Positions 39,455-42,836 of a DNA stretch of 45,768 bases are shown here, piece by piece. This DNA comes from a virus. The stretch is from positions 1 through 45,768 of IMG/VR virus record IMGVR_UViG_3300032770_000037; one strand, 5' to 3'. Below the pieces are notes generated by a model that saw only the letters and a list, made by a program, of their open reading frames with translations, did no database searches and had not been told where the DNA came from. Position 1 is the first letter of the stretch, and the number at the start of each line of letters is the position of its first letter. The translations under genes were made by a program, and so were the position numbers.

Positions 39455-40723
39455 CTAATCTTCAATTCTAATCACTTTGCCGAATTTCGGCTCAGGATAG
39501 AACGTATTCTTTTTCACGATCACCGCGACGTGTGGAATGCTCGGCGCTTCCATCTCCCACGGCGTCTCACCATCGGTTACGGTAATGATCATGTCCGGGC
39601 GGTCGCCGCCGCGGAGCCCTAGCGCGTGTTTGATGCCAACACGCATATCAGTTCCACCGCCGCCCACCGGCTTGATGTCTGAGAACCGGCGCACGTTGCG
39701 TTGCAGTGTTCCCACGGCATCCGTCCAGACAACGTTGACCTGGCCGACGCATTTGACGATGCCGATGACCTCGGAGAATGCGCGTTGTAGCGGCGTGCCT
39801 TCACCCTGACCCATGCTGCCGCTTGTATCGGCCACAATCGCAATGACCGGCTGCGGCATCTTGTGGCGAGGAAAGATCAGGTTGCCGCGTCTACGTGAGC
39901 GCATATAGGTCTGCCTTCCCAATCCGCACCGGGCAACCCCAGTGGCAACACAGTTGCGCACCAACCGTTTCCACGGTGACTTGGGTGTAAGGATCGTCTT
40001 GCACCAGACTTCCCAGCCGGCAGGCAATGTACCCCGGCCATTGGCCTCCAAATGCTTCTCCATTTCCTGCGCGGCCTGGATCCGTTTGGCGACCTGTTCG
40101 ACTTCGCCCAGGGCCGGATGCTGTTCATCGTCCTCGGGCAATTCCCACGGCCGGGGAACGCCATCGGAACAGGAACCTCCGGTGGATGGTTTACCATTCG
40201 ATTGTCCGGGCTGCTGCTGACCGCCGGAGCCGCCCTTGCCCTTCCCCTGCGCCTTGCCGCCTCCGCCGGGCGGCTTCGGCCGGTTGCGCAGTTTCGGCAG
40301 ATATTCTTCGGCTAAGAGATTCTCGGGCCAGCCGTATTTGCTCGGATGCAGCCCGCACTTGGGCAGTGGCAGGACGGTCTCGTTCCCGTAATCATCACGC
40401 GACGTCCATTTGGCGCAGTTGATCTCCAGATCGGTCGCCTCATTCCATTCGTCGTGGTCCGCGGCGGAATCTTTGCAGCGCGTAGCGTGGTCTCTCAAGA
40501 GATGACTGACCTCGTGAATGAGAACGTAGGCGACCTCCGCTGTCGGCCATTGCGAGACGATCTTCGGATTGTAGTAACAGCGCCAGCCATTATCGACGCC
40601 CATGACCGGGACTTGCTCGGTCTCGACCATCGTAAGCGCATGAAGACTATCGCGCCAATACGGAGCCGCGTTGACGGCCAGATACATCGCGGCGTCAAGT
40701 TTGAGATTGGCTTTGGAGTCCAT
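39455..40723 (-). CDS. vWA-like metallopeptidase protein (DUF2201 type)
   Basis: 422 aa. The N-terminal domain has a zinc-protease motif HEVSHLLRDH (H70, E71, H74, with H79 nearby). A Gly/Lys/Gln linker (150-190) leads to a C-terminal von Willebrand A domain with a perfect MIDAS start DTSGSMG (299-305) and later TD...VTDGE acids. This layout matches the DUF2201/vWA proteins paired with MoxR ATPases in bacteria; the MoxR gene is at 41829-42836 in the same operon. The pair probably remodels or activates a protein target. Confidence 0.85.
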   Translation of the reverse strand: MDSKANLKLDAAMYLAVNAAPYWRDSLHALTMVETEQVPVMGVDNGWRCYYNPKIVSQWPTAEVAYVLIHEVSHLLRDHATRCKDSAADHDEWNEATDLEINCAKWTSRDDYGNETVLPLPKCGLHPSKYGWPENLLAEEYLPKLRNRPKPPGGGGKAQGKGKGGSGGQQQPGQSNGKPSTGGSCSDGVPRPWELPEDDEQHPALGEVEQVAKRIQAAQEMEKHLEANGRGTLPAGWEVWCKTILTPKSPWKRLVRNCVATGVARCGLGRQTYMRSRRRGNLIFPRHKMPQPVIAIVADTSGSMGQGEGTPLQRAFSEVIGIVKCVGQVNVVWTDAVGTLQRNVRRFSDIKPVGGGGTDMRVGIKHALGLRGGDRPDMIITVTDGETPWEMEAPSIPHVAVIVKKNTFYPEPKFGKVIRIED

Positions 40724-41045
40724 GTGATACCTTCTGTTGGAAGCGGGCGATGACAGCTACCGGGTCTTTCCACCACGCCGGAACGATGTTGGGGTAGTCT
40801 TCGCGTTTTAGGATGTCCTGCGGACATGTCGCGCAGCCACAATCCTTCAGTGCGATCAGATTGAGTTTTTTCCGCGATATGCCGTTTATTTCGACAGTAC
40901 CCGTGGCCTTGATGTGTTCTTCCGGCAATTCACACCATCCTTCGACGGTGCGCGGCAGAAGGCGATGCTTTGCCTTGCTCGACCAGCCCCCGCTTCCGTA
41001 CCGGCCATGTTGGTCGAAAACCAGATATTGATAGAATGCTTTCAT
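40695..41045 (-). CDS. Hypothetical protein, 116 aa
   Basis: Overlaps the vWA gene by 29 bases. Aromatic N-terminus ([21 protein letters not shown]), then HIKATGTVEINGISRKKLNLI and CGCATCPQDILK, a CxCxxC cluster that may bind metal. It lies between two members of the MoxR/vWA operon. Not recognised. Confidence 0.65.
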   Translation of the reverse strand: MKAFYQYLVFDQHGRYGSGGWSSKAKHRLLPRTVEGWCELPEEHIKATGTVEINGISRKKLNLIALKDCGCATCPQDILKREDYPNIVPAWWKDPVAVIARFQQKVSHGLQSQSQT

Positions 41046-41215
41046 TCCGCCAGCCTCTTCCTCACGCGTTCGAGTTCCTTCACCAGATACGCCTCCAGCT
41101 TGAGAAGCGTTTCCCGGTTCTGACTGCCAAGCCGGATATGACCTTCGACCAGCTTGATCGGGTCACGCACCGCACTGGCAGCACCATCCAGCATGTTTTC
41201 AACGTCAATTTCCAC
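41042..41215 (-). CDS. Small helical protein, 57 aa
   Basis: GTG 41215, stop overlapping the next ATG (ATGA). Begins [18 protein letters not shown] and ends in a charged helix ([14 protein letters not shown]). The frame is open further upstream through a Cys cluster (CEHCDCSG) but has no start there. Not recognised. Confidence 0.5.
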
Positions 41216-41297
41216 GGTCGCCTTTCCGGAGCAATCGCAATGCTCGCATGTTGTAGGCGACCGTCGCCAACACGACGCGTTGTGTCAGTGGTGCCAT
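41205..41297 (-). CDS. Possible 30-aa peptide
   Basis: ATG 41297 with CAGGAAAAC before it; [18 protein letters not shown] and a basic tail; its end overlaps the GTG of the next gene by 11 bases. Supported only by coupling and a weak site. The hydrophobic helix recalls the C-terminal end of some transposases, but 30 residues cannot show that. Confidence 0.3.
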
Positions 41298-41336
41298 GTT
41301 TTCCTGCCGGACTTTTACGACCTCGGCGCTGGTCGG

Positions 41337-41600
41337 TTAGTTTATACCGTCCCCGTACCCGTCCCCGTACCCGTCCCCGTACCCGTCCCCGTACCCGTCC
41401 CCGTACCCGTCCCCGGACCAGTCCCCGGACCCGTCCCCGTACCCGTCCCCGGACCAGTCCCCGGACCAGTCCCCGTACCCGTACCCGGACCCGTCCCCGG
41501 ACCAGTCCCCGGACCAGTCCCCGTACCCGTACCCGGACCCGATATGGTCTCGCATTTCTTGATTCATCAAAACTGCGATTTCGTAATCAACTTGCTTCAT
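41337..41600 (-). CDS. Gly/Tyr/Asp/Trp/Ser repeat protein, 87 aa
   Basis: [20 protein letters not shown] (residues 1-20) is followed by about 65 residues in which nearly every second residue is Gly: GYGD and WSGD units in irregular order, ending GDGIN. The start overlaps the end of the DUF6948-like gene by 14 bases. Similar Gly-Xxx tails are found, as I recall, with DUF6948-type genes in phages and gut bacteria. A low-complexity, perhaps phase-separating or ice/metal-binding protein is conceivable, but no function is known. Confidence 0.65.
41347..41541. repeat. G-run hexamer repeat tract, G-quadruplex-prone
   Basis: The leftward strand reads GGGGAC, GGGTAC and GGTCC-type hexamers for about 195 bases. 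There are repeated runs of three or four G separated by two bases, which satisfies the usual four-run G-quadruplex rule many times over. Slippage could change its length. On the rightward strand the same tract would read as Val-Pro repeats, but no start or site supports that frame. Confidence 0.85.
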
Positions 41601-41832
41601 GTTGGCACTCGATCAGATGCACCAAAGATGTGAGCGGTGCTTGAACGAACCCCACTTCATCCATCACTGTCTCTTTAGTAGGACCATGTAAGGCGAGTTC
41701 GCCAAGTCCACGCTTGGTGCCCCATCTTCTGATATTTTTGGCGTCACGGATTGCAATCCAACCATCCGTTATTTCGATGGTGCCGTGGTACACAAACCCG
41801 TTCGTCAGGACTACAATGTGGTTCTTTTTCAT
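41587..41832 (-). CDS. DUF6948-like protein, 81 aa
   Basis: ATGA overlap with the MoxR stop. Sequence: [34 protein letters not shown] and a C-terminal beta region with [11 protein letters not shown]. This matches my memory of DUF6948: the central [18 protein letters not shown] stretch is characteristic. Function unknown. It often precedes a Gly-Tyr-Asp repeat protein, as here. Confidence 0.65.
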
Positions 41833-42836
41833 TTGCCCAGCTCACTCAGCAGTTGACCGTATAGTTTGAAGCACTCGGGATACTTCGCCATGCGCGATGC
41901 GCCCAATGTCCGCACCAACCGGCGAATCTCGACGATGCAACTGGATTTGAATCCCTTCTCGGCGGCTCGCGTGTACCAAGCTACCGCGTTGTCCAGCGCC
42001 TGATGCGTGGGTTTGTCGCCCAGGACAGCAGCCAGAGCGCCCGCAGTGGCACTCACGCCATCACCACGCGGCGGGACGCGTTTCTCGGTCCCGGCGATGA
42101 TGTCGCGCGGATCGGGCAAGTCCATCTCCGTGAACCACTTGATGAACTGCGCCGCACCGTCCAGCCCGATGTATTCGTGCCAATGCTGGAGACTGCCTTC
42201 CTCGGCTGCCGCGCGAGTCCACGCCCGCAGACATACGAACGGTTCCTGCTTGGCGACCGCGACCTTGACCGCGTCGGGTCCAGCTTGCGCCTGACCCGGA
42301 TTGCTGTTGAGGTACGATGCGACGATCCGCGTCATGCCCTCTAGCGGCGGCTTGATCGGGATGTCGATGACCAAGCCTTGACCGCCAGCCAACCAGTCCA
42401 GCGCCGGCTTGTAATCGACGCGGCGGTGCCGGAACCGTGACAGAACCGGCGGCGGCAGTTCGCGCGCCGCGCCCGCGGCTTCCTCGGGCGGGTTCGCAGT
42501 CGCGACAACGATCGTGTCCTCATGTAGTTTGTGGCCGCAGAGCTCACGGCTGTCGTCGGTGGCACGCAACACGGCAGCGTGCTGTTCATGATTGCAGGTT
42601 GTGAGTTCCTCGAAGACCAGAACGTGAGGCTTCTGGCAAGCATGCAGCCACCAACTCGGCAGCTTGCGCTCGCAATGGCCGTTGTCCGCAACAATGACGC
42701 CGCAGATGTCCACGGGATCTTCTTGCGAAGCGACCATCGCGTAATGGCCGAACCCTTTGCGCTCGGCCATCGCCCGCAACCCTTCGGATTTGCCGCATCC
42801 GGGACCACCCCAGAGCAGCATTGGTGTTTTTGGCAT
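41829..42836 (-). CDS. MoxR-type AAA+ ATPase
   Basis: 335 aa. Walker A GGPGCGKS (10-17); Walker B VLVFEEL (about 73-79); sensor 1 VVATANPPEE; an Arg-rich SRFRHRRVDY segment for the arginine finger; AAA lid helical part to the C-terminus. The very short N-terminus before the P-loop is typical of the class paired with vWA partners. ATP hydrolysis would drive remodelling of a partner, probably the vWA/metallopeptidase protein encoded at 39455-40723. A AAAGGA site lies before ATG. Confidence 0.88.
   Translation of the reverse strand: MPKTPMLLWGGPGCGKSEGLRAMAERKGFGHYAMVASQEDPVDICGVIVADNGHCERKLPSWWLHACQKPHVLVFEELTTCNHEQHAAVLRATDDSRELCGHKLHEDTIVVATANPPEEAAGAARELPPPVLSRFRHRRVDYKPALDWLAGGQGLVIDIPIKPPLEGMTRIVASYLNSNPGQAQAGPDAVKVAVAKQEPFVCLRAWTRAAAEEGSLQHWHEYIGLDGAAQFIKWFTEMDLPDPRDIIAGTEKRVPPRGDGVSATAGALAAVLGDKPTHQALDNAVAWYTRAAEKGFKSSCIVEIRRLVRTLGASRMAKYPECFKLYGQLLSELGK

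Follow-up and report, generated by a model that had tools for sequence, protein, structure and literature searches.

What does a phage do with a MoxR-type ATPase and a protein that joins a metallopeptidase domain to a vWA domain, when both are encoded in one operon? The question is raised by the virus record IMGVR_UViG_3300032770_000037, which was analyzed over its whole length of 45,768 bp and is called here the window. The answer to which the data point, with a probability of roughly 0.6, is that the two proteins constitute a remodelling machine like gp24/gp25 of N4, whose target would be a complex from early or middle infection rather than the late virion. The two open reading frames (ORFs), proposed in a first-pass annotation of the sequence, lie where it placed them, and their Pfam and PHROG matches are far beyond chance:

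41829-42836, minus strand: MoxR-type AAA+ ATPase, 335 amino acids (aa)
39455-40723, minus strand: DUF2201 protein, 422 aa, with an N-terminal zincin-like metallopeptidase domain and a C-terminal vWA/MIDAS domain

The ATPase matches PF07728 AAA_5 in Pfam (E = 3.7e-7, above the cut-off) and phrog_1297 in PHROGs (E = 7e-25). Walker A, Walker B, sensor 1, the arginine finger and sensor 2 are all present, the motifs being GPGCGKS with K16 (Walker A), E76-E77 (Walker B), N115 (sensor 1), R134 and R204. The first Walker B acid, E76 in the window, is D in 98% of the relatives. The P-loop occupies residues 10-17, and the protein starts ∼20 residues later than most relatives; this start is preceded by a good ribosome-binding site, and there is no earlier in-frame ATG, GTG or TTG. 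The structural model is confident (mean predicted local distance difference test, pLDDT, 88.0), and the top 15 hits of a Foldseek search with it against the PDB are exclusively chains of NorQ, from the NorQD complex, or of CbbQ2; CobS is likewise matched, at the sequence level. As expected of MoxR proteins, the ATPase would form a hexamer and hydrolyze ATP.

Its partner matches PF13203 DUF2201_N (E = 4.5e-24, 85.9 bits, cut-off 23.2), PF09967 DUF2201 (E = 9e-11, 42.4 bits, cut-off 26.4) and phrog_1314 (E = 3e-42). The metallopeptidase motifs are H70-E71-V-S-H74 (HExxH) and N94-x-A-x-D98 (NxAxD), and the MIDAS is formed by D299-T-S301-G-S303, T358 and D384, so that the HEVSH and DTSGSMG motifs are indeed joined in one protein, as had been annotated. 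The AlphaFold model is confident (mean pLDDT 84.9). Its vWA domain matches vWA domains of solved structure, NorD and the Rea1 MIDAS more weakly, and the profile of the N-terminal domain gives weak matches to gluzincin-like peptidases (MJ1213, M48). Among solved structures, none of a complete DUF2201 protein turned up.

Are these sites maintained? The relatives, 157 for the ATPase and 149 for the DUF2201 protein, were fetched from viral contigs by short patterns around the P-loop and around NxAxDxxIN, respectively, so that the conservation of the residues there (K16, 100%; N94, A96, D98 and N102, 99%) is due partly to the selection of the set. Outside the fetch patterns lie HExxH (H70, E71 and H74, 100%), the MIDAS (D299, 99%; S301, S303, T358 and D384, 100%), N115 (100%), R134 (98%) and R204 (99%), and E77 is kept in 96%. 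An apparent loss of the MIDAS in ∼30% of the relatives was an artefact of too narrow a pattern, as the alignment has D299, S301 and S303 conserved at 99-100%. With columns at 96-100%, the loss of catalytic residues that the first-pass annotation had raised as an objection to its own proposal is not seen, and the DUF2201 protein has a predicted zinc peptidase site with intact active-site residues.

The family carries a misleading name. Several phage records in RefSeq bear for DUF2201 proteins the copied name "HNH endonuclease", which is also the label of PHROG 1314, and no HNH domain was found in them; N4 gp25 (L166:5165-6307) matches only DUF2201_N (3e-87) and DUF2201 (1e-46), so the label was set aside as being without domain support. 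This wrong naming obscures the DUF2201 phage family.

Another question is whether the two proteins travel together. Around DUF2201 seeds in viral contigs, MoxR was present within 8 kb in 76 of 80 loci, and around MoxR seeds DUF2201 was present at the same distance in 68 of 80, several of the partner-less loci being contigs that end near the seed gene. Among the same-strand loci MoxR is upstream of DUF2201 in 72/75 (DUF2201-seeded) and in 68/68 (MoxR-seeded). The mirror-tree distances of the two proteins correlate with r = 0.93 over 114 non-redundant pairs, against a permutation maximum of 0.19; supported MoxR splits contradict 13 of the 60 well supported DUF2201 splits. The two genes co-evolve and are inherited together, and the independent gain that a phylogeny might have disclosed, as the first-pass annotation had envisaged, is not found. 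In a collection of phage isolates 743 records match one member of the pair and 803 the other, with nearly identical host lists. The closest pair-bearing loci have no other gene in common with the window operon, which indicates that the pair moves as a cassette.

The pair is also not new to phages. The closest relative found for it has 36% identity (L006), and hhalign aligns the window proteins over nearly their full length with the products of N4: the DUF2201 protein with gp25 (E = 2.9e-58) and the ATPase with gp24 (E = 1.9e-54). The window pair is thus a divergent member of a known phage pair type. The genes for gp24 and gp25 belong to the core set of the N4-like phages, which infect many different hosts (PMC4193335, PMC7650795), and the core pair of N4 and the Schitoviridae has, like that of the window, both genes on the same strand, MoxR upstream, and a location on the replication side. 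The differences are that the window proteins are only ∼16-21% identical to those of N4, that four small ORFs separate the partners, that the N-terminus of the window ATPase is shorter, and that the window phage is not N4-like, since it has a long-tail tape-measure gene. The first-pass idea of a phage complex being remodelled by the pair is in line with what has been proposed in print. The presence of the pair in phages had been reported before (PMC7824862, PMC4193335, PMC7650795).

Which complex, then, and when? The plus strand of the window carries the terminase, portal, capsid and tape-measure genes. On the minus strand, between 34.5 and 45.6 kb, ∼23 genes form one dense head-to-tail block, mostly overlapping or nearly so, many by 4 nucleotides (nt), which bears out the proposed single operon with small genes between the partners. 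Thus, the block that encodes MoxR and DUF2201, opposite in strand to the head and tail genes, also encodes proteins of replication and recombination:

34935-35492, minus strand: Holliday junction resolvase-like protein (phrog_1770, 1.5e-14)
35489-36625, minus strand: RecT-like annealing protein (phrog_148, 2.4e-36)
37940-38551, minus strand: exonuclease (phrog_298, 1.1e-20)
43427-44131, minus strand: clamp-loader-like AAA+ protein of just 234 aa, similar to DnaX/RFC over their N-terminal part (phrog_5846, 1.2e-11; dnaX_nterm, 2.7e-9)
44499-45173, minus strand: DNA methyltransferase (phrog_799, 3.4e-45)

Since the pair would be made together with these proteins, an early or middle target is favored over the late virion, and the timing suggested by the window operon is also suggested by N4, whose gp24/gp25 transcripts are of the middle class (PMC4193335), and by the neighbors of other pairs. 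The 25 commonest neighbor families listed for those pairs include thymidylate synthase, dihydrofolate reductase, DNA polymerase and RNA polymerase.

The competing proposal is that of a virion-assembly chaperone with a processing peptidase. It was made for jumbo phages by Iyer et al. 2021, who described MoxR and the metallopeptidase-vWA protein as a chaperone-cochaperone pair and proposed a role in virion assembly and structural-protein processing by analogy with the MoxR-vWA of the Acidianus two-tailed virus (PMC7824862). The domain architecture and the pairing in their group 2.2 are as in the window; however, their pair belongs to large genomes, whereas the window is a phage of 45.8 kb with the pair in an early/recombination operon. 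In the window and in N4 the genes sit with replication, not late, genes, and no capsid or tail family is found among the 25 neighbor families, although terminase, their sole virion-related member, is present. On these grounds an assembly role appears rather unlikely for the window pair. Still, RPP1, an N4-like phage, encodes virion proteins beside its gp24/gp25 homologues, in a second structural module, and this would fit assembly (PMC4193335). The RPP1 arrangement weighs against the favored model, and so do three other points: the promoter signal in the minus-strand operon is not above chance, which makes the evidence on timing weak; the zinc site of the DUF2201 protein is judged from sequence only; and neither a substrate nor biochemical work was found for any phage pair.

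How might the early/middle-phase machine work? The model is built on homology, intact active-site residues, co-inheritance and operon context. The ATPase would form a ring in the manner of MoxR proteins and would couple to the DUF2201 protein via its vWA domain, whose MIDAS site would be where either the ring or the target is held. The force for pulling or twisting the target would come from ATP hydrolysis, and the zinc-peptidase domain joined to the vWA domain may clip this target. The likeliest target would be a protein complex of early or middle infection, belonging to the phage or to the DNA/RNA machinery of the host.

The best understood MoxR-vWA machine is NorQD, in which a finger of the vWA protein enters the ring pore and the linker is twisted (PMC13036017). 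NorQ-NorD, involved in the maturation of the nitric oxide reductase cNOR, shares with the window the MoxR ring ATPase and the vWA partner and is the best fold match in the PDB; NorD, however, has no DUF2201 metallopeptidase domain, and its complex is directed to the reductase. RavA-ViaA, CbbQ-CbbO, CobS-CobT and Midasin-Rsa4/Ytm1 likewise combine a MoxR or midasin-type ATPase with a MIDAS domain, and differ from the window in partner domains and targets; for RavA-ViaA the partner lacks a metallopeptidase domain, so the window protein, with its PF13203 domain, is not of the ViaA kind. Could the pair instead insert a metal or a cofactor, as NorQD or CobST do, the zincin fold serving as a metal-binding adaptor and not as a protease? 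The solved structures nearest to the ATPase are NorQ and CbbQ, and CobS is matched by sequence, but HExxH has its catalytic Glu in 100% of the relatives. A protein that only carries metal could do without this residue, which makes the option very improbable.

A third proposal, also raised by the first-pass annotation, is that the machine unfolds or cuts a host defence complex. The pair is movable and present in unrelated phages, and bacterial conflict systems do contain MoxR-vWA pairs as their core, in which fusions of the metallopeptidase domain to vWA are rare (Kaur et al. 2020, PMC7159879). Nevertheless, no direct evidence for such a role emerged: no third component or effector of the MoxR-vWA ternary systems was recognized among 10 operon proteins (Pfam, PHROGs), and PADLOC gave nothing meaningful for 7 of them, its one match being a 22-residue P-loop (E = 0.047). 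In addition, the pair is core in N4-like phages across many hosts, whereas anti-defence genes are typically patchy (PMC4193335, PMC7650795). Counter-defence is accordingly improbable, and remodelling of an early or middle complex remains the preferred reading.

As for the wider setting, no close relative of the window phage appears to be in the viral-contig collection, since the MoxR, DUF2201 and clamp-loader-like proteins, used as single-protein queries, retrieved nothing related, and for the RecT-like protein there was a single relative, at 27%. Rfam and tRNA scans gave no match.

A further surprise stands between the two partners, where four small genes are found:

41587-41832, minus strand: DUF6948-family small protein, 81 aa, overlapping the MoxR gene by 4 nt
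41337-41600, minus strand: (Gly-X)n tandem-repeat protein, 87 aa, overlapping the DUF6948-like gene by 14 nt
41042-41215, minus strand: small ORF, 57 aa, no family match in Pfam or PHROGs
40695-41045, minus strand: small ORF, 116 aa, no family match in Pfam or PHROGs, overlapping the vWA gene by 29 nt

A DUF6948-like gene, a Gly repeat gene and small ORFs without a known family had been noted in the first-pass annotation and are present, but none of these small genes is part of the machine. The pair was found near 3 of 80 repeat loci and 1 of 80 DUF6948 loci, and DUF6948 in 0 of 160 pair loci; a general functional link was therefore rejected, and the two modules appear independent, meeting in the window by mosaic exchange. 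In L179, L192 and L195 a Gly-repeat or DUF6948 gene is close to a MoxR-DUF2201 pair, in L195 with repeat genes on both sides.

Is this second module a real one? The window DUF6948-like protein scores 19.7 bits against PF22253, for which the Pfam cut-off is 27, while 27 of its 39 aligned relatives match the family, with a best E of 1.4e-30. An LSM fold, reaching at best E = 0.036 in Pfam, is not claimed. In the Gly-repeat gene Tandem Repeats Finder reports a 12-bp unit in 16.2 copies at 41347-41541. A degenerate search of viral contigs for the codons of [11 protein letters not shown] returned at least 120 stretches, of which 80 loci were kept. A profile made from the window DUF6948-like protein found the family in 67 of these 80, typically directly upstream with an overlap of ∼9 nt, at least one of the 67 matches (L169) being the repeat protein itself. 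Conversely, when viral loci were seeded on DUF6948 alone, a (Gly-X)n array followed at most 900 bp downstream in 74 of 80; of the others, 2 end too soon and 4 are without an array. Among the DUF6948-bearing contigs, 19 of 80 stop less than 500 bp past the gene, as if assemblies broke at the array. The array also lies downstream of 5 of 7 DUF6948 matches in bacterial genome contigs, and array-bearing relatives occur in isolates or assembled phages (Rheinheimera Barba, Rhodobacter RcapNL, ctOK67).

Several repeat proteins (L167-L246) have recurring in-frame heads (e.g., ...VxDVLDxGACxDGVxxF...) or tails (...HGEVxxDxxKxGxLKREIxxE...), which suggests that small proteins of various families have the (GX)n array attached; these heads and tails, being in the Gly frame, disfavor another reading frame for the arrays. 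No paper was found for "DUF6948" in open-licence full texts, and in the open-licence literature on phage glycine-rich repeat proteins none of the listed titles or abstracts describes the module. The nearest likeness is with Borg elements, whose coding tandem repeats create disordered proteins (PMC9879509): these too are fast-evolving coding repeats in mobile elements, but the elements and the units are others and there is no tie to DUF6948.

The variation of the arrays is the most unusual aspect. The unit is a Gly codon followed by an X codon, X being mostly Tyr, Asp, Ser or Asn. Over 137 distinct arrays, related to an unknown extent and of lengths that short-read assembly may have altered, minority bases make up 3% at the third position of Gly, whose positions 1 and 2 are fixed by definition, and 3% at the third position of X, but 38% at the first position of X and 17% at the second; in 134 of the 137 the coding positions are more variable than the silent ones. 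In the first, repeat-seeded set, selected with a pattern demanding Tyr and Asp though not any one third base, the majority third base is the same for the Tyr and Asp codons in 73/73 arrays; in the DUF6948-seeded set, where a few arrays are read in the neighboring frame, it is not common to both in 3/58. Serine is encoded by TCC/TCT 348 times versus 7 for AGC, and transversions prevail (TAC 724, GAC 499, AAC 66 and CAC 8 in the DUF6948-seeded set). The X variants look as if they were derived from the Tyr unit by single changes inside each array. Codon bias was rejected as the full cause, because the frozen base differs among arrays and silent sites are also frozen in AT-rich phages, with flanks of 30-40% GC. 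How fast can such arrays change? Nine Barba isolates (L287, L376-L383) have zero differences in the 250 bp upstream and 200 bp downstream, yet four array alleles, which differ by a Tyr/Asn change in one unit and by two separate gains or losses of a single unit.

The ordinary explanation of this pattern is that units turn over fast and selection then favors a mixture of residues at X; alternatively, a targeted process may be diversifying the bases of the X codon. We are evenly divided on whether DUF6948 and (Gly-X)n form an undescribed and widespread phage module, with a repeat gene made hypervariable by gain and loss of hexamers and by diversified X-codon coding positions, its silent positions being frozen, through either very strong selection on X or a process directed at the bases concerned.

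In conclusion, the pair belongs to the core set of a large phage family and, with its active sites conserved, is also spread over phages that are not related. The Gly-repeat module is common and largely unannotated, and its inverted variation, with coding sites that vary and silent sites that are fixed, needs explaining. If the module is as proposed, phages would possess a hypervariable low-complexity protein with a dedicated small partner.

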